DNA from: Micromonospora rosaria
GTDB taxonomy: Bacteria > Actinomycetota > Actinomycetes > Mycobacteriales > Micromonosporaceae
Length of the DNA: 64,000 nucleotides
NCBI RefSeq assembly: GCF_001567585.1
Contig: NZ_LRQV01000007.1
Location: 1-64,000, forward strand
Reading direction: 5' to 3'
This document shows, piece after piece, positions 9,002 through 35,558 of the stretch (positions are counted from its first letter, which is position 1; every line of letters begins with the position of its first letter). The notes beneath the pieces were generated by a model. That model was given only the letters and a program-made list of their open reading frames with translations. It made no database searches and was not told the origin of the DNA. Position numbers and translations under genes: made by a program.

Positions 9002-10456
9002 ATGGGTTTTGCGCGGCCCGACGTCCGGCTCGGTGTCACCCTGCTGCTGGCCGGGGCCCTGGTGCTCGGCGGCTGCGACGCGGCACCGGAGCGGGACGCG
9101 CAGCGGTCGGCGACACCGGCCCCGTCGCGCGAGTTCGGGCCCGGTGCCCCCGGCGCCGGCGACGACTACTTCCCCACCTACGGCAACGGGGGCTACGACG
9201 TCGGGAAGTACACCGTGAAGGTCCGCTACGACCCGGCGACCGACCAGCTCAGCGGCGTCACCACCGTGCAGGCCACGGCCACCGCCAACCTCTCGTCGTT
9301 CAATCTGGACCTGGCCGGCCTGACCGTCCGGACGGTCACCGTGGACGGTGCCGAGGCCAAACACCGCCACACCGACGGCGAACTGACGGTCACCCCCGCC
9401 ACCGGGCTGGCCGACGGCAACGGCTTCGTCGCCGAGATCACGTACGCCGGGAAGCCGGAGCCGACCGGCACCGAGATCCTCGGCGAGGGCGGGTGGCTGC
9501 ACACCGCCGACGGGGCCATCGCGCTCGGCCAGCCGGAGTCGGCCAGCACCTGGTTCCCGGTCAACGACCACCCCTCTGACAAGGCGACGTACGACTTCGA
9601 GATCACCGTGCCGGAGGGGCTGACCGCGGTCAGCAACGGGGTGCCGCAGGGCAGCGGCAGCGCCGACGGCTGGACCACCTGGAAGTGGGCCGAGCGGGTG
9701 CCGATGGCCAGCTACCTGAGCACCGTGGTGATCGGCAGGTTCCGGGTGAGCACCGGTGAACACAAGGGCCGGCCGGTGTACCACGCGATCAGCACCGACC
9801 TGCCGAAGGGACCGGCCGACGAGTCGATCGCCGCCACCGTCCGGGTCGCCGACTACCTGGAGACCGTCTTCGGTCCGTACCCCGTCGAGGCGTACGGCGG
9901 GGTGGCCATCGCCGACGACCGCATCCGGTACGCGCTGGAGACGCAGAGCCGCCCGGTGTACGGGGCGAGCTTCTTCAGCAGCGGGGTGAACACCGAGGTC
10001 GTCGCGCACGAACTGGCCCACCAGTGGTTCGGCAACAGCGTGGCGCTGACGACGTGGGAGGACATCTGGCTCAACGAGGGCTTCGCCACGTACGCCGAGT
10101 GGCTCTGGAACGAGCACGACGGCGGGCCCAGCGTCCAGCAGGCGTTCGACACCCACTACGCCGGGGTGGCCGCCGAGGTCTGGCGGACGCCGCCGGGGCG
10201 GCCGGGCCCGCAGAACCTGTTCAGCACGTCGGTGTACCAGCGGGGCGGGATGACCGTGCACGCGCTGCGGCTGGCCGTCGGCGACGAGGCGTTCTTCCGG
10301 ATCCTCAAGGCGTGGCCGGAGCAGAAGCGCGACGCCAACGGCACCACCGCGGACTTCGTGGCGCTGGCCGAGAAGACCTCCGGCAAGCAGCTCAACGCCC
10401 TCTTCGACGCCTGGCTCTACGGCACCGACAAGCCCCCCACCCCCCGACGCCTGTAA
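9002..10456 (+). CDS. M1 family metallopeptidase (aminopeptidase) lipoprotein
   Basis: A 484-residue zinc aminopeptidase of the M1 (gluzincin) family. It begins with a lipoprotein signal whose lipobox LVLGGC places the lipidated residue at Cys25, so it should be anchored on the outer face of the membrane. The N-terminal beta domain ends near residue 230; the zinc motif HELAHQW is at 336-342, with the third ligand Glu in WLNEGFATYAEW. It lacks the long C-terminal helical domain of PepN, as many short bacterial M1 enzymes do. The ATG at 9002 has GGGAGGA upstream. The TAA stop lies inside the first base triplet of a dispersed repeat element. Confidence 0.92.
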   Translation: MGFARPDVRLGVTLLLAGALVLGGCDAAPERDAQRSATPAPSREFGPGAPGAGDDYFPTYGNGGYDVGKYTVKVRYDPATDQLSGVTTVQATATANLSSFNLDLAGLTVRTVTVDGAEAKHRHTDGELTVTPATGLADGNGFVAEITYAGKPEPTGTEILGEGGWLHTADGAIALGQPESASTWFPVNDHPSDKATYDFEITVPEGLTAVSNGVPQGSGSADGWTTWKWAERVPMASYLSTVVIGRFRVSTGEHKGRPVYHAISTDLPKGPADESIAATVRVADYLETVFGPYPVEAYGGVAIADDRIRYALETQSRPVYGASFFSSGVNTEVVAHELAHQWFGNSVALTTWEDIWLNEGFATYAEWLWNEHDGGPSVQQAFDTHYAGVAAEVWRTPPGRPGPQNLFSTSVYQRGGMTVHALRLAVGDEAFFRILKAWPEQKRDANGTTADFVALAEKTSGKQLNALFDAWLYGTDKPPTPRRL

Positions 10457-31236: not shown

Positions 31237-32242
31237 GAACATTCTGGAGATCCGGGACCTGGTCAAGCACTACCCGGTCACCCGGGGCGTGGTCTTCAAG
31301 AAGACCATCGGCCAGGTCAAGGCGGTCGACGGCGTCTCCTTCGAGCTCAAGGCCGGGGAGACGCTGGGGCTGGTCGGCGAGTCGGGCTGCGGCAAGTCGA
31401 CGCTGGCCCGGGTCCTGATGAACCTGGAGAAGCCGACCGCCGGTAGCGTCGTCTACAAGGGCCAGGACATCTCCCGGCTCACCGGGGCGGCGCTGCGCCG
31501 GCTGCGGCGGCAGATCCAGCTCGTCATGCAGGACCCGTACACCTCGCTCAACCCCCGGATGACGGTGGGTGACCTGATCGGTGAGCCGTTCGAGATCCAC
31601 CCGGAGGTGGCGCCGAAGGGCAGCCGGCAGGGCAAGGTCAAGGAGCTGCTCGACCTGGTCGGCCTCAACCCGGAGCACATCAACCGGTATCCGCACCAGT
31701 TCTCCGGCGGCCAGCGGCAGCGGATCGGCATCGCCCGCGCGCTCGCCCTGCGTCCGGAGATCATCGTCTGCGACGAGCCGGTGTCGGCGCTGGACGTGTC
31801 GATCCAGGCCCAGGTGATGAACCTGCTGGAGAAGCTCCAGAACGAGTTCGGCCTCTCGTACGTCTTCATCGCCCACGACCTGTCGGTCGTGCGGCACCTC
31901 TCCGACCGGGTCGCGGTGATGTACCTCGGCAAGATCGTGGAGATCGGGACCGAGGACGAGATCTACGAGCGGCCGACCCACCCGTACACCCAGGCGCTGC
32001 TGTCGGCGGTGCCGGTGCCGGACCCGACGCTGCGGTCGAGCAAGGCGATCATCCGGCTGACCGGGGACGTGCCGTCACCGATCAGCCCGCCCTCGGGCTG
32101 CCGGTTCCGGACCCGCTGCTGGAAGGCGCAGGACGTCTGCGCCGAGCAGGTGCCGGCGCTGGAGATCCGGGACGGCTCGGACCACCCGAGCGCCTGCCAC
32201 TTCGCCGAGAAGCGCGAGATCGTCGCCACCCACGAGGCCTGA
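31229..32242 (+). CDS. oligopeptide ABC transporter ATPase (OppF/DppF type)
   Basis: A 337-residue second ATPase. Walker A is [11 protein letters not shown], the Q loop [12 protein letters not shown], the signature [19 protein letters not shown] and Walker [13 protein letters not shown]. The C-terminal domain has [14 protein letters not shown]. With OppD it forms the heterodimeric motor for peptide import. The GTG at 31229 overlaps the OppD stop, so the last four genes are closely coupled. A long hairpin and repeat copy 3 follow. Confidence 0.94.
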
Positions 32243-32256
32243 TCCCGCCCGACCCC

Positions 32257-32300
32257 CGAGCCGCCGCCCGGCGTCACCCGTGACACCGGACGGCGGCTCG
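32257..32300 (+). terminator. terminator of the peptide importer operon
   Basis: A long stem: CGAGCCGCCG pairs with CGGCGGCTCG, and the inner segments CCGG and GTCAC pair with GTGAC and CCGG, with two mismatches in all. It lies 15 bases after the OppF-type stop. Confidence 0.8.
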
Positions 32301-32347
32301 TCGGCGTCGGCGGTGGGTGCGGTGGCCGGAGCGCCGGGGCCGGGGTG

Positions 32348-32401
32348 TTAGGAAGGGGCCCTTCTACTACCGGAAGCGTTAACAGGGGGCCCTTCCTTAC
32401 C
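32348..32401 (-). repeat. dispersed 54-bp palindromic element, copy 3
   Basis: Reverse orientation: ends CAGGGGGCCCTTCCTTACC on the plus strand with the centre taccggaagcgttaac. It lies between the convergent importer operon and the chorismate mutase gene, three bases past the latter's stop. Confidence 0.85.
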
Positions 32402-32403
32402 TC

Positions 32404-32772
32404 TCAGAGGGGGCCTCGGCCGGCGCGGAGCAGCAGCAGCGCGAGCTGGGTGCCGTCGGCGCCGAGTTCCCGGCGGAACCGCTCCAGGATCTCGCGTTCC
32501 CGGGAGAGCACCAGCCGGGTGCCGCCGGAGGCCATCCGGGTCGCGCCGACCTGCTGCGACAGGCCGGCCCGCTCCTGCCACAGCGCGATCAGGGTCCGGT
32601 CGATCTCGTCGATCCGCTCCCGGATCGCGCTGATCCGCGCCGCCGCCTCGGGTTCGTCGGTGCCGGTGCCCGGCCGGGCCGGGTCGGTCGGCGCCGGTCC
32701 CGCGCCCCCGGCGCCGGCCCCCGCGTCGGACCGCGCGACGCCGCCGCTCTGCTCCACCACGTCTGTCATCAT
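32404..32772 (-). CDS. chorismate mutase, AroQ type
   Basis: A 122-residue protein with a ~50-residue Gly/Ala/Pro-rich start and an AroQ helical domain in its second half: ISAIRERIDEIDRTLIALWQER, then LVLSREREILERFRREL. The conserved Arg of the first helix, the Arg/Lys region and the Glu-rich second helix fit the AroQ fold, which turns chorismate into prephenate for Phe and Tyr synthesis. The ATG at 32772 (an ATG-ATG pair) has GAGGGG about eight bases upstream. It lies behind a tyrosine/phenylalanine-coding leader and a terminator-like hairpin, so attenuation is likely. It is unlinked to other aro genes here. Confidence 0.88.
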   Translation of the reverse strand: MMTDVVEQSGGVARSDAGAGAGGAGPAPTDPARPGTGTDEPEAAARISAIRERIDEIDRTLIALWQERAGLSQQVGATRMASGGTRLVLSREREILERFRRELGADGTQLALLLLRAGRGPL

Positions 32773-32820
32773 CGTCGTACCCCTCGGACGTCGGGCCCGG
32801 GTGCCCGGATCCCGGAACGG

Positions 32821-32854
32821 AAAAGCCCCGGGCTCCTGCGAGCCCGGGGCTTTT
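32821..32854 (-). terminator. attenuator hairpin upstream of chorismate mutase
   Basis: On the minus strand a perfect 15-bp stem (aaaagccccgggctc) closes a gcag loop and its 3' arm ends in TTTT. It is one of the few hairpins here with a U run. It lies in a divergent space, between a short aromatic leader frame and the chorismate mutase start, where an ordinary gene-end terminator is not expected. Confidence 0.8.
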
Positions 32855-32869
32855 CGTAGGTCTGGTCGA

Positions 32870-32935
32870 TCAGGCGTGACCCACGGCTGCCGGACTCCCG
32901 GTGCCGTAGTAAAAGTAGAGGCGCTGACCGAACAC
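32870..32935 (-). CDS. aromatic leader peptide of chorismate mutase
   Basis: A 21-codon frame starting GTG at 32935, reading VFGQRLYFYYGTGSPAAVG and then HA, stop at 32870. Codons 7-10 are Tyr-Phe-Tyr-Tyr, with TTT used for Phe, a rare codon in this genome. A CATACT -10 box ends seven bases before the GTG, so translation would be leaderless. The stop lies 15 nt before the attenuator hairpin. Upstream in-frame TTG (32971) and ATG (32995) are possible but have no ribosome site. Low Tyr or Phe would stall the ribosome here and allow read-through into chorismate mutase. Confidence 0.65.
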   Translation of the reverse strand: MFGQRLYFYYGTGSPAAVGHA

Positions 32936-32942
32936 GCCGTCG

Positions 32943-32971
32943 AGTATGCCGCCGCCGTCTCCGGGGCGCAA
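32943..32971 (-). promoter_or_regulatory. promoter of the leader-chorismate mutase transcript
   Basis: TTGCGC, a 17-bp spacer and CATACT on the minus strand. Three of six -35 and four of six -10 positions match consensus, and spacing is ideal. The transcript would start at or next to the leader GTG. Confidence 0.5.
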
Positions 32972-33104
32972 GCAGACCGCCGATACCGCCCGCATGCCGG
33001 GCAGGTCACCGGGCGGGACGGGAAAAGGCCAGGTCGCCGGGGTGATGGTCGGCACGCGCCGGGTCGCCGACCCGCCTTGCCCCGGAACTGTCCGGGGGTC
33101 GGCA

Positions 33105-33110
33105 TAGACT
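33105..33110 (+). promoter_or_regulatory. -10 box for uvrD
   Basis: TAGACT lies nine bases before the uvrD ATG at 33120, which has no ribosome binding site; probably a leaderless transcript. No -35 element at proper distance. Confidence 0.5.
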
Positions 33111-33119
33111 CGCCGTGCG

Positions 33120-35558
33120 ATGCATCCTCTCTTCGACATCCCCGCGTCCCCGTCCACGCCCGACCCCGCGCCGGCTCCGCCGCGCCGGCCCGGCCCCGCC
33201 GTCCGCCTCGATCCACAGGACCTGGTCGAGGGCCTCAACGGGCCGCAGCGTGACGCGGTCACGCACGCCGGCTCGCCGCTGCTGATCGTGGCCGGGGCCG
33301 GCTCGGGCAAGACCCGGGTGCTCACCCACCGGATCGCGTACCTGCTGGCCGCACGGGACGTGCACCCCGGCGAGATCATCGCGATCACCTTCACCAACAA
33401 GGCCGCCGGGGAGATGAAGGAGCGGGTGACCCACCTGGTCGGGCCGCGCGCCCGGCTGATGTGGGTCTCCACCTTCCACTCCGCCTGCGTGCGGATCCTG
33501 CGCGCCGAGCACGAGCACGCCGGGTTGAAGTCGACCTTCTCGATCTACGACGCGGACGACTCCCGCCGGCTGATGCAGCTCGTCGCCCGGGAGCTGGACC
33601 TGGACCCGAAGCGGTACCCGGCCCGGGGGCTGGCCGCCCAGGTCTCCAACCTCAAGAACGAGCTGGTCGACCCGGAGACGTTCGCCGGCCGGGCCAGCGG
33701 GCCCAACGAGCGGGCCCTCGCCGAGGCGTACACGCTCTACCAGCGGCGGCTGCGCGAGGCGCACGCGCTGGACTTCGACGACCTGATCATGACCACGGTG
33801 CACCTGTTCCAGTCGCACCCGCACGTCGCGGAGAGTTACCGCCGTCGGTTCCGGCACGTCCTGGTCGACGAGTACCAGGACACCAACCACGCCCAGTACG
33901 TGCTGATCAAGGAGCTGGTCTCCGGCACCGAGGGGATCGAGCCGGCGGAGCTGTGCGTGGTCGGTGACGCCGACCAGTCGATCTACGCGTTCCGGGGCGC
34001 CACGATCCGCAACATCCTGGAGTTCGAGCGGGACTTCACCGACGCCCGCACGATCCTGCTGGAGCAGAACTACCGCTCCACCCAGACCATCCTCAACGCG
34101 GCCAACGCGGTGATCGACCGGAACACCTCGCGCAAGCCGAAGCGGCTGTGGAGCGACGCCGGCCCCGGCGAGCAGATCGTCGGGTACGTCGCCGACACCG
34201 AGCACGCCGAGGCGGACTGGGTCGGCCGGGAGATCGACCGGCTGGTCGACGAGGACGCGGCCCGGCCCGGTGACGTGGCGGTCTTCTACCGCACCAACGC
34301 CCAGTCCCGGGTCTTCGAGGAGGTGTTCATCCGGGTCGGCCTGCCGTACAGGGTGGTCGGCGGGGTGCGCTTCTACGAGCGCAAGGAGGTCCGCGACGCG
34401 CTGGCGTACCTCCGCGCGGTGGTCAACGACGACGACACGGTCAACCTGCGCCGGATCCTGAACACCCCGCGCCGGGGCATCGGCGAGCGGGCCGAGGCCT
34501 GCGTGGAGGCGCTGGCCAGCCGGGACCGGATCTCTTTCGGCGCGGCGCTGCGCCGGGCCACGGACGCCCCCGGCATCTCCACCCGGGCCGCGAACGGCAT
34601 CGGTGACTTCGTCGCGCTCCTCGACGGTGTGCGGGAGGTGGCCGAGACCGGCACCCCGGAGGAGGTGCTGGAGGCGGTGCTGACCCGGTCGGGCTACCTC
34701 AGCGAGCTGGAGGAGAGCCTGGACCCGCAGGACGCCGGCCGGGTGGACAACCTCCAGGAACTGGTCAGCGTGGCCCGGGAGTACACCGAGCGGATCGAGG
34801 CGACCGGCGCAGAGGGGGAGCGGGCCACCCTGGCCGGGTTCCTGGAGCAGGTCGCCCTGGTCGCCGACGCCGACCAGATCCCTGCGCAGCCTGACTCGGC
34901 AGCCGACGGTGCCGAGGCCGACGACCCGGCGCCATACCAGGGCGTGGTCACCCTGATGACGCTGCACACCGCCAAGGGGCTGGAGTTCCCGGTGGTGTTC
35001 CTGACCGGCCTGGAGGACGGCGTCTTCCCGCACCTGCGCGCGCTCGGCGACACCCGTGAGCTGGAGGAGGAGCGCCGGCTCGCGTACGTCGGCATCACCC
35101 GGGCCCGGCAGCGGCTCTACCTGTCCCGGGCGGTGACCCGCTCGGCCTGGGGGCAGCCCGCCTACAACCCGCCCTCGCGGTTCCTGGAGGAGCTGCCTCC
35201 GGCGCTGGTCCGCTGGGAGCGCACCGAGGGGACGTACACCTCGTGGGGTGGCGGGGGCGGCGGCGTCGGCGGGCGCGCGGACCGGGTGCCCGGCGGGCGC
35301 GGCGGCTTCACCGGGGGGACCCCGAAGGCCGCCCAGTTGGCGAAGCGGCTCGGGGTCGACGGCAGCCGGCTGACCACGGCCAGCGAGCTGCCCCAGGGGC
35401 CGAAGGTGGCGGCCGGCGACCGGGTCAACCACCAGCGGTACGGGCTCGGTCGGGTGCTCGCCGTCGAGGGGCACGGCCCCGGTGCCCGCGCCCAGATCGA
35501 CTTCGGCGACCAGACCATGTGGCTGGTGCTGCGGCACGCGCCGGTCGAGAAGATCTGA
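33120..35558 (+). CDS. ATP-dependent DNA helicase, UvrD/PcrA type
   Basis: An 812-residue superfamily 1A helicase for nucleotide excision repair, replication restart and removal of proteins from DNA. Motifs in order: Q motif LNGPQRDAV, Walker A GAGSGKT at 59-65, motif Ia ITFTNKAAGEM, Walker B VDEYQDTNHAQY, motif III GDADQSIYAFRGA, motif IV EQNYRSTQTIL, motif V LHTAKGLEFP and motif VI VGITRARQRLYLSRA. The C-terminal ~60 residues form the RNA-polymerase-binding Tudor-like domain after a Gly-rich linker (GGGGGGVGG). Length is usual for PcrA. It appears leaderless and ends in a hairpin that overlaps its stop. Confidence 0.96.
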   Translation: MHPLFDIPASPSTPDPAPAPPRRPGPAVRLDPQDLVEGLNGPQRDAVTHAGSPLLIVAGAGSGKTRVLTHRIAYLLAARDVHPGEIIAITFTNKAAGEMKERVTHLVGPRARLMWVSTFHSACVRILRAEHEHAGLKSTFSIYDADDSRRLMQLVARELDLDPKRYPARGLAAQVSNLKNELVDPETFAGRASGPNERALAEAYTLYQRRLREAHALDFDDLIMTTVHLFQSHPHVAESYRRRFRHVLVDEYQDTNHAQYVLIKELVSGTEGIEPAELCVVGDADQSIYAFRGATIRNILEFERDFTDARTILLEQNYRSTQTILNAANAVIDRNTSRKPKRLWSDAGPGEQIVGYVADTEHAEADWVGREIDRLVDEDAARPGDVAVFYRTNAQSRVFEEVFIRVGLPYRVVGGVRFYERKEVRDALAYLRAVVNDDDTVNLRRILNTPRRGIGERAEACVEALASRDRISFGAALRRATDAPGISTRAANGIGDFVALLDGVREVAETGTPEEVLEAVLTRSGYLSELEESLDPQDAGRVDNLQELVSVAREYTERIEATGAEGERATLAGFLEQVALVADADQIPAQPDSAADGAEADDPAPYQGVVTLMTLHTAKGLEFPVVFLTGLEDGVFPHLRALGDTRELEEERRLAYVGITRARQRLYLSRAVTRSAWGQPAYNPPSRFLEELPPALVRWERTEGTYTSWGGGGGGVGGRADRVPGGRGGFTGGTPKAAQLAKRLGVDGSRLTTASELPQGPKVAAGDRVNHQRYGLGRVLAVEGHGPGARAQIDFGDQTMWLVLRHAPVEKI

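Follow-up and report, generated by a model that had tools for sequence, protein, structure and literature searches.

The 64,000-nucleotide stretch of Micromonospora rosaria DNA analysed here (contig NZ_LRQV01000007.1; hereafter the window) carries on its minus strand aroQ, a chorismate mutase gene, preceded by a short reading frame with a run of tyrosine and phenylalanine codons and by a strong hairpin, which together form a candidate transcription attenuator (Table 1). The hairpin begins 15 nt after the leader TGA and ends 48 nt before the aroQ ATG at 32772, while uvrD, on the plus strand, diverges from the leader with its start at 33120. A preliminary description of the window had placed the promoter pair, the GTG at 32935, the 21-codon frame with Tyr-Phe-Tyr-Tyr, the hairpin, aroQ and uvrD, and each of these positions proved exact to the base. 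The aroQ product is an actinobacterial intracellular chorismate mutase, as judged by matches to Pfam CM_2, NF005894 (110.2 bits, cut-off 73) and TIGR01808 (73.4, cut-off 52.15), with 5hub (E 9.3e-20) and 2qbv (Rv0948c, E 2.1e-19) as the nearest solved chains; we take it to be of the delta subclass.

To find such leaders we used a rule that demands an open reading frame of 12–34 codons, at least three Phe, Tyr or Trp residues within six, a −10-like box and a strong hairpin 3′ of the stop codon. Applied to both strands of the window, the rule returned a single match, the aroQ leader; without the −10 box it returned two on the minus strand and none on the plus strand. In 374,332 strand-bases flanking 80 aroQ loci from named genomes no match was found. 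Taken together with the conservation reported below, the scan rules out a chance reading frame. The codons are those for the end products of the enzyme that would be controlled, Tyr-Phe-Tyr-Tyr in the window and an aromatic cluster in its relatives. The start codon lies 6–8 nt 3′ of the −10 box in 67 of 68 Micromonosporaceae leaders, a spacing which suggests that translation of the leader is probably leaderless. Phe codon usage in the leaders also stands out, TTT accounting for 95 of 141 Phe codons in 66 Micromonosporaceae leaders versus none of 64 in six window genes.

Table 1. Coordinates of the aroQ leader region in the window.
Feature	Position	Strand	Basis and remarks
−35-like element TTGCGC	32966..32971	minus	seen in the sequence; CTTGCG stretch common to many Micromonosporaceae relatives
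−10 box CATACT	32943..32948	minus	17-nt spacer after TTGCGC; 7 nt 5′ of GTG 32935
Leader frame, 21 codons VFGQRLYFYYGTGSPAAVGHA + TGA	32870..32935	minus	start GTG 32935; stop TGA 32872-32870
Aromatic codons 7-10, TAC TTT TAC TAC (Tyr Phe Tyr Tyr)	32906..32917	minus	predicted stall site
Leader hairpin 1:2 (core)	32881..32909	minus	predicted to mask segment 2 when the leader is untranslated; ribosome-free fold, pair counts
Segment 2, antiterminator 5′ strand GAGUCCGG-CA-GCCGUGGGUC	32878..32897	minus	folding, pair counts
Segment 3, antiterminator 3′ strand GACCUACG-AAAA-GC-C-CCGGGCUC	32840..32862	minus	overlaps terminator 5′ arm; folding, pair counts
Terminator hairpin 3:4, 15-bp stem AAAAGCCCCGGGCTC 32854-32840 / GAGCCCGGGGCTTTT 32835-32821, then TTTT	32821..32854	minus	sequence, fold, pair counts
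aroQ, chorismate mutase, 122 aa	32404..32772	minus	predicted controlled gene; family and structure matches

Conservation of the leader and of its pairings

Of 150 genomes sampled from Micromonosporaceae, 149 proved to carry an aroQ gene. The DNA preceding it was read in all but one of the 44 genera in this sample (30 loci and 40 stretches; genus g5, with a weak match, was left out), and in all 43 at least one aroQ copy is preceded by the leader, which was recognised by eye only at locus L056 and has a weaker aromatic cluster at L038 and L057. Among named genomes, the best 80 of 479 loci comprised 25 from Micromonosporaceae and 55 from Streptomyces or Kitasatospora, and 79 of them have the leader (78 by the rule, L221 on inspection). 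Second copies of aroQ can lack it, as at L069, L070 and L225, the last belonging to M. fulviviridis and being the one exception among the 80.

A covariance model, R1, led to families beyond Micromonosporaceae, where loci were chosen by model score at the order and class levels. The aromatic leader is present in all 40 of the order-level loci picked in this way outside Micromonosporaceae (34 by the rule, the rest by eye) and in all 27 of the class-level loci, L102-L128 (26 by the rule, the other by eye). In tblastn comparisons, 38 of the 40 order-level leaders stand before AroQ and one (L167) before a 3-deoxy-D-arabino-heptulosonate 7-phosphate (DAHP) synthase, while the stretch at L168 ends before any match and reads into AroQ by eye; at the class level 23 stand before AroQ and four before DAHP synthase. 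The overall tallies of R1 matches, 258 of 298 genomes in the order and 162 of 296 in the class, are not to be taken as prevalence, as many weak matches cover the terminator part only. Locus counts include repeats: L123/L172, L127/L173 and L107/L186 are identical pairs, and L209, L214 and L218 are repeats as well. A typical Streptomyces leader reads MRKHQTFLFTYGNRPTGCHGRAA (S. coelicoflavus, L253), and in family f8 the leader occurs in all four genomes of genus g51, for example VLDKRRFFYGYRSAVPVV. At two loci from genera of this family that have no leader (L283, L286), aroQ seemingly starts immediately after the −10 box, as though the entire attenuator had been excised. In distant families, five of 11 loci were scanned and gave no clear result.

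To follow the pairings we aligned 68 loci, 66 of them distinct. The alignment of relatives, a check proposed in the preliminary description, revealed both conserved aromatic codons and covarying stems. In the antiterminator, formed by segment 2 with segment 3 and the terminator arm, 93.3% of the alignment cells are paired, compared with 19–48% in slid controls. Both sides have changed in 15 antiterminator cells, compared with 3.0 in shuffles (none of 500 as high) and 5–11 in slid controls, and in 8 of 17 pairs, compared with 2.5 in shuffles. For the leader hairpin and terminator taken together, 95.6% of cells are paired (95.4% for the terminator hairpin) and 10 of 26 pairs, or 47 cells, have changed on both sides, the slid controls giving 5–8 pairs and 8–21 cells. 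By eye, segment 2 and the terminator arm read GAGUCCGG/CCGGGCUC in most loci, UUGUCCGGG/CCCGGGCAA in L032, CGUCCGGG/CCCGGGCG in L040 and GGACUCCGG/CCGGAGUCC in family f15; inside family f15 and inside the Streptomyces alignment the pairing looks nearly invariant.

We also conducted a cognate-pair test, in which the partners of 67 leaders from nine groups of our choosing were permuted 2000 times. Segment 2 pairs with its own segment 3 and arm at a mean of −25.24 kcal/mol compared with −22.21 kcal/mol for permuted partners, none of the 2000 permutations being as low, and in 55 of the 67 leaders the cognate pairing is stronger than the average between-group swap. When only the terminator arm serves as partner, the means are −16.3 and −15.35 kcal/mol (0 of 2000). 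Taken as a whole, the sequence tests indicate that the leader is a new, widespread family of predicted attenuators which would use a known mechanism, ribosome-mediated attenuation.

Predicted folding and ribosome stalling

The predicted folding energy of the RNA between the GTG and aroQ is −85.7 kcal/mol, which relative to 200 shuffles corresponds to a z score of −4.07, and the terminator hairpin has a conserved, GC-rich stem of 15 bp followed by a U run of only four. When the nascent RNA was folded with segment 1 blocked, 32897-32878 paired with 32862-32840 in a 19-bp antiterminator helix of −28.9 kcal/mol, in which the terminator 5′ arm contributes CCGGGCUC as the partner of GAGUCCGG, and GCCGUGGGUC faces GACCUACG and the next GC. 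The preliminary description had named as its weak point that only a CCGGG core could pair with this arm; folding places CCGGG within the longer helix, so that this reservation falls away. Without a ribosome, the fold of the window RNA predicts the 1:2 hairpin, which masks segment 2.

To simulate stalling, we stepped a model ribosome codon by codon along the leader, covering 12 nt from the first base of the codon in the aminoacyl (A) site. The number of terminator-arm nucleotides engaged by the antiterminator was 9–10 with the ribosome at codons 6–10, 6–8 at codons 11–12, none at codons 13–15, 5 at codons 16–17 and none from codon 18 to the stop; codons earlier than 6 were also permissive. Since the full antiterminator forms at or before codon 10, the aromatic codons 7–10 are the last permissive stall positions and not the sole ones. 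The same behaviour was seen when 220 leaders from every group were simulated: at least 5 nt of the arm are engaged in 210 with the A site on the first aromatic codon and in 209 with it on the last, compared with 10 with it on the stop codon. The folding and the pair tests thus both describe an antiterminator whose formation precludes that of the terminator and which a stalled ribosome would promote, the energy of the window helix taken alone being ordinary against shuffles.

On this basis, aroQ is very probably controlled by a ribosome-mediated transcription attenuator that raises its expression when charged tRNA-Tyr or tRNA-Phe is scarce. The preliminary description had read the locus in the same way, and that reading is strengthened by the conservation of the leader, the antiterminator pairing and the covariation, the response itself being a prediction. 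Transcription would start at or next to GTG 32935, and ribosomes would load on the leaderless message. When Tyr and Phe are plentiful, the ribosome would reach the stop codon and cover segment 2, the 3:4 terminator would form and the polymerase would halt before aroQ. A stall at codons 7–10 would instead place the ribosome over segment 1, leaving segment 2 free to pair with segment 3 and with the terminator arm as it emerges, and aroQ would be transcribed. If the leader were not translated, the 1:2 hairpin would mask segment 2 in the window RNA, and termination would therefore be the default.

Tryptophan codons before DAHP synthase

Chorismate mutase serves Phe and Tyr only, while DAHP synthase serves Phe, Tyr and Trp. 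We sorted the leaders by downstream gene with tblastn and scored Trp in the best six-residue aromatic span. Before AroQ, Trp is found at 2 of 169 loci and in 1 of the 39 leaders whose stretch stops short of a gene match (38 of these 39 stretches were taken upstream of aroQ), giving 3 of 208. The DAHP synthases behind leaders are of type I (P0003; PF00793, PF18152), and before them Trp is found at 18 of 22 loci and at both of two found later, giving 20 of 24, or 17 of 21 once three repeats are removed; examples are MRTAWSFWYG, MRTAFWFWYG and MQRNFWRFYG. Counted as distinct peptides, Trp occurs in 13 of 17 before DAHP synthase versus 2 of 135 before AroQ (Fisher p ~1e-13, a value that ignores relatedness), and in 1 of 39 from the stretches that stop short of a gene match. 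Since Trp is usually added before DAHP synthase, the leader codons appear to follow the amino acids served by the enzyme that each leader would control.

The DAHP synthase leaders without Trp in the scored span are L181, where a Trp follows further on, L185, L187 and L200. The last three, which may form a third subtype, have in common an extended GC-rich tail (ARAGRPAAAA) and an RNA fold of different appearance. Among the best 30 DAHP synthase loci, 19 have an aromatic leader (16 by the rule, L181 by eye, and L176 and L177). Two genomes of family f31 with a DAHP synthase leader (G503, G436) gave no AroQ match to the single query used. The type II DAHP synthases of the Micromonospora genome itself have no aromatic leader by eye within 500 nt upstream of either copy; the second of these genes, G000:C73:22888-24006, was matched as two adjoining pieces (L170, L171).

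At the DAHP synthase loci L107 and L123, R1 gives matches with E values of 2.1e-14 and 4.9e-11, part of the score coming from the terminator. With that reservation, common descent of the AroQ and DAHP synthase leaders is suggested by these matches. We consider it about evenly balanced whether a single ancestral actinomycete module, placed at the enzyme that serves as the pathway gate in each lineage, was recoded to carry Phe and Tyr before chorismate mutase and Trp, Phe and Tyr before DAHP synthase.

Alternative explanations and known systems

Several results weigh against an attenuator of this kind. A sigma-70 scan found no promoters and thus did not return the −35/−10 pair, and we trust the −10 box and its distance to the start codon because of their conservation. 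A generic terminator scan made no call for the hairpin on the minus strand, where the U run is four. In 116 of the 220 leaders the arm is engaged even with no ribosome present, so that default termination is not evident for every relative. In the full-length RNA every ribosome state favours the terminator fold, so that kinetics, the order of events during transcription, must decide, as in classical attenuators. Shuffling segment 2 gave an energy as good as that of the window antiterminator in 9 of 60 cases, and p ≤ 0.05 against such shuffles was reached in only 109 of the 220 leaders. The slid control at +3 equals the eight antiterminator pairs changed on both sides; 33 of the 67 cognate pairs beat the mean swap when the terminator arm was considered alone, and 15 of the 67 fall in the best tenth with segment 3 included. 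Finally, the leader was found in none of eight genomes of family f8 from genera other than g51 (8 of the 12 family genomes are without it), and no leader was seen at 11 of the best 30 DAHP synthase loci.

The short U run and the hairpin missed by the terminator scan would also suit translational control, in which stalling opens or closes the aroQ ribosome-binding site and the hairpin is merely a stable barrier. A CCCGGG-like block 3′ of the terminator, present in many relatives (window 32820-32773; consensus tail of the relatives GTTCCGGG), could have a role in such a scheme and is left unexplained by the attenuator model. We nevertheless consider translational control improbable, as segment 2 has its conserved pairing with the terminator arm and not with the ribosome-binding site, and a strong hairpin is kept at the same place in the 68 aligned loci.

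Less probable still is a fixed terminator, insensitive to amino acids, whose effect is to reduce aroQ expression. On that account the aromatic run would be a by-product of U-rich, unpaired sequence, and the aromatic codons are indeed U-rich and, in the leader hairpin, remain unpaired. However, the aromatic block varies (FYFYY, FFYY, FVFTY, FFYG) within a conserved frame with conserved start and stop, and U-richness predicts no such split as that of the TGG Trp codons, which are common before DAHP synthase and nearly absent before AroQ.

The similarity of the peptide, FYFYYGxGSPAAVGRA, across much of Micromonosporaceae could be taken to mean that the 21-residue product is itself functional and that the hairpin ends a small message. 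This we regard as most unlikely: a two-base gap shifts the peptide tail in L032, L037, L039 and L040 (GRPGRRSR-like, not GSPAAVGRA), as a like shift does in some Streptomyces leaders (L109, L233), while the RNA pairing is kept, the terminator arm still being engageable by computation in L032, L037 and L040. In addition, the peptide is absent from the second aroQ copies L069, L070 and L225. Because the frame of the tail changes while the pairings persist, selection seems to act on the codons of the aromatic block and on the RNA behind it rather than on the peptide tail. An ordinary gene-end terminator was rejected, since the space in the window is divergent and the element recurs where the upstream DNA differs, as was a known riboswitch or T-box, since no Rfam match reached its gathering score: Rfam 15 gave six weak matches, all below that score, in 31500-34500 of the window and none at L114, L172, L151, L140 and L253.

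Near aroQ we also observed a palindrome-like repeat, AGGAAGGGSCCCT, at 32350-32362 and 32385-32397, and again at 10456, 11720, 46806 and 49755, giving six window matches with at most one mismatch versus 0.23 expected. It has 133 exact matches in the Micromonospora genome versus none for a reversed control, occupies, in relatives such as L005, L013, L017, L019 and L028, the space that separates the aroQ leader from the gene before it, and looks like a dispersed intergenic repeat.

The predicted attenuator has several known counterparts, which are compared here by description from the accessible parts of the cited texts. In Corynebacterium glutamicum the aroR leader (Phe-Tyr-Phe; Neshat et al. 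2014) regulates the aroF operon, the response being to limitation of Phe and not of Tyr (PMC11802643; aroR also appears in PMC4046766), which bears out the aromatic DAHP synthase leader of Corynebacterium that the preliminary description had mentioned. Both systems place an aromatic leader in an actinobacterium ahead of an attenuated gene of the aromatic pathway; however, aroR precedes a DAHP synthase and is Phe-only, whereas the window gene encodes a chorismate mutase. Escherichia coli pheL-pheA likewise subjects a chorismate mutase gene, encoding a bifunctional chorismate mutase-prephenate dehydratase, to ribosome-mediated attenuation, but in another phylum and gene architecture and with a leader that senses Phe only (PMC11802643). 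The trp, ilv and leu leaders of Streptomyces and its relatives are similar in that they are often leaderless peptides with terminators, and differ in that they serve other amino acids and genes (PMC1262725, PMC8079986). A predicted upstream open reading frame in Acholeplasma, uORFC-13-1, also combines Phe codons and a terminator ahead of an aromatic-pathway gene, aroF; in this case the phylum is different, the gene encodes a DAHP synthase and the system is a prediction only (PMC8632094).

In its accessible text, a 2005 survey describes no conserved RNA elements before the phenylalanine/tyrosine operons of Actinobacteria (PMC1262725), and none of eight S. lividans leaders is placed before a chorismate mutase in that of PMC8079986, from which the term is absent. 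None of PMC1262725, PMC8632094, PMC11109978, PMC13236596, PMC5784534 and PMC4633059 mentions chorismate, nor does PMC9094748 mention Rv0948c. Our literature searches turned up no attenuator described for a chorismate mutase of actinobacteria, and an earlier report is possible.

The small chorismate mutase encoded by aroQ is related to Rv0948c, which is reported to require activation by DAHP synthase, and its dose could thus steer carbon between Phe/Tyr and Trp, which are precursors of many antibiotics. The predicted attenuator would provide a concrete mechanism for Phe and Tyr supply at the chorismate branch point in many actinomycetes, including Micromonospora and Streptomyces, in contrast to the 2005 survey, whose accessible text reported no RNA control for these two amino acids (PMC1262725). 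If the Trp rule holds, leader codons could predict the amino acids served by the downstream enzyme and, if a single module was indeed recoded, the leader peptide would tell which amino acids an enzyme answers for.
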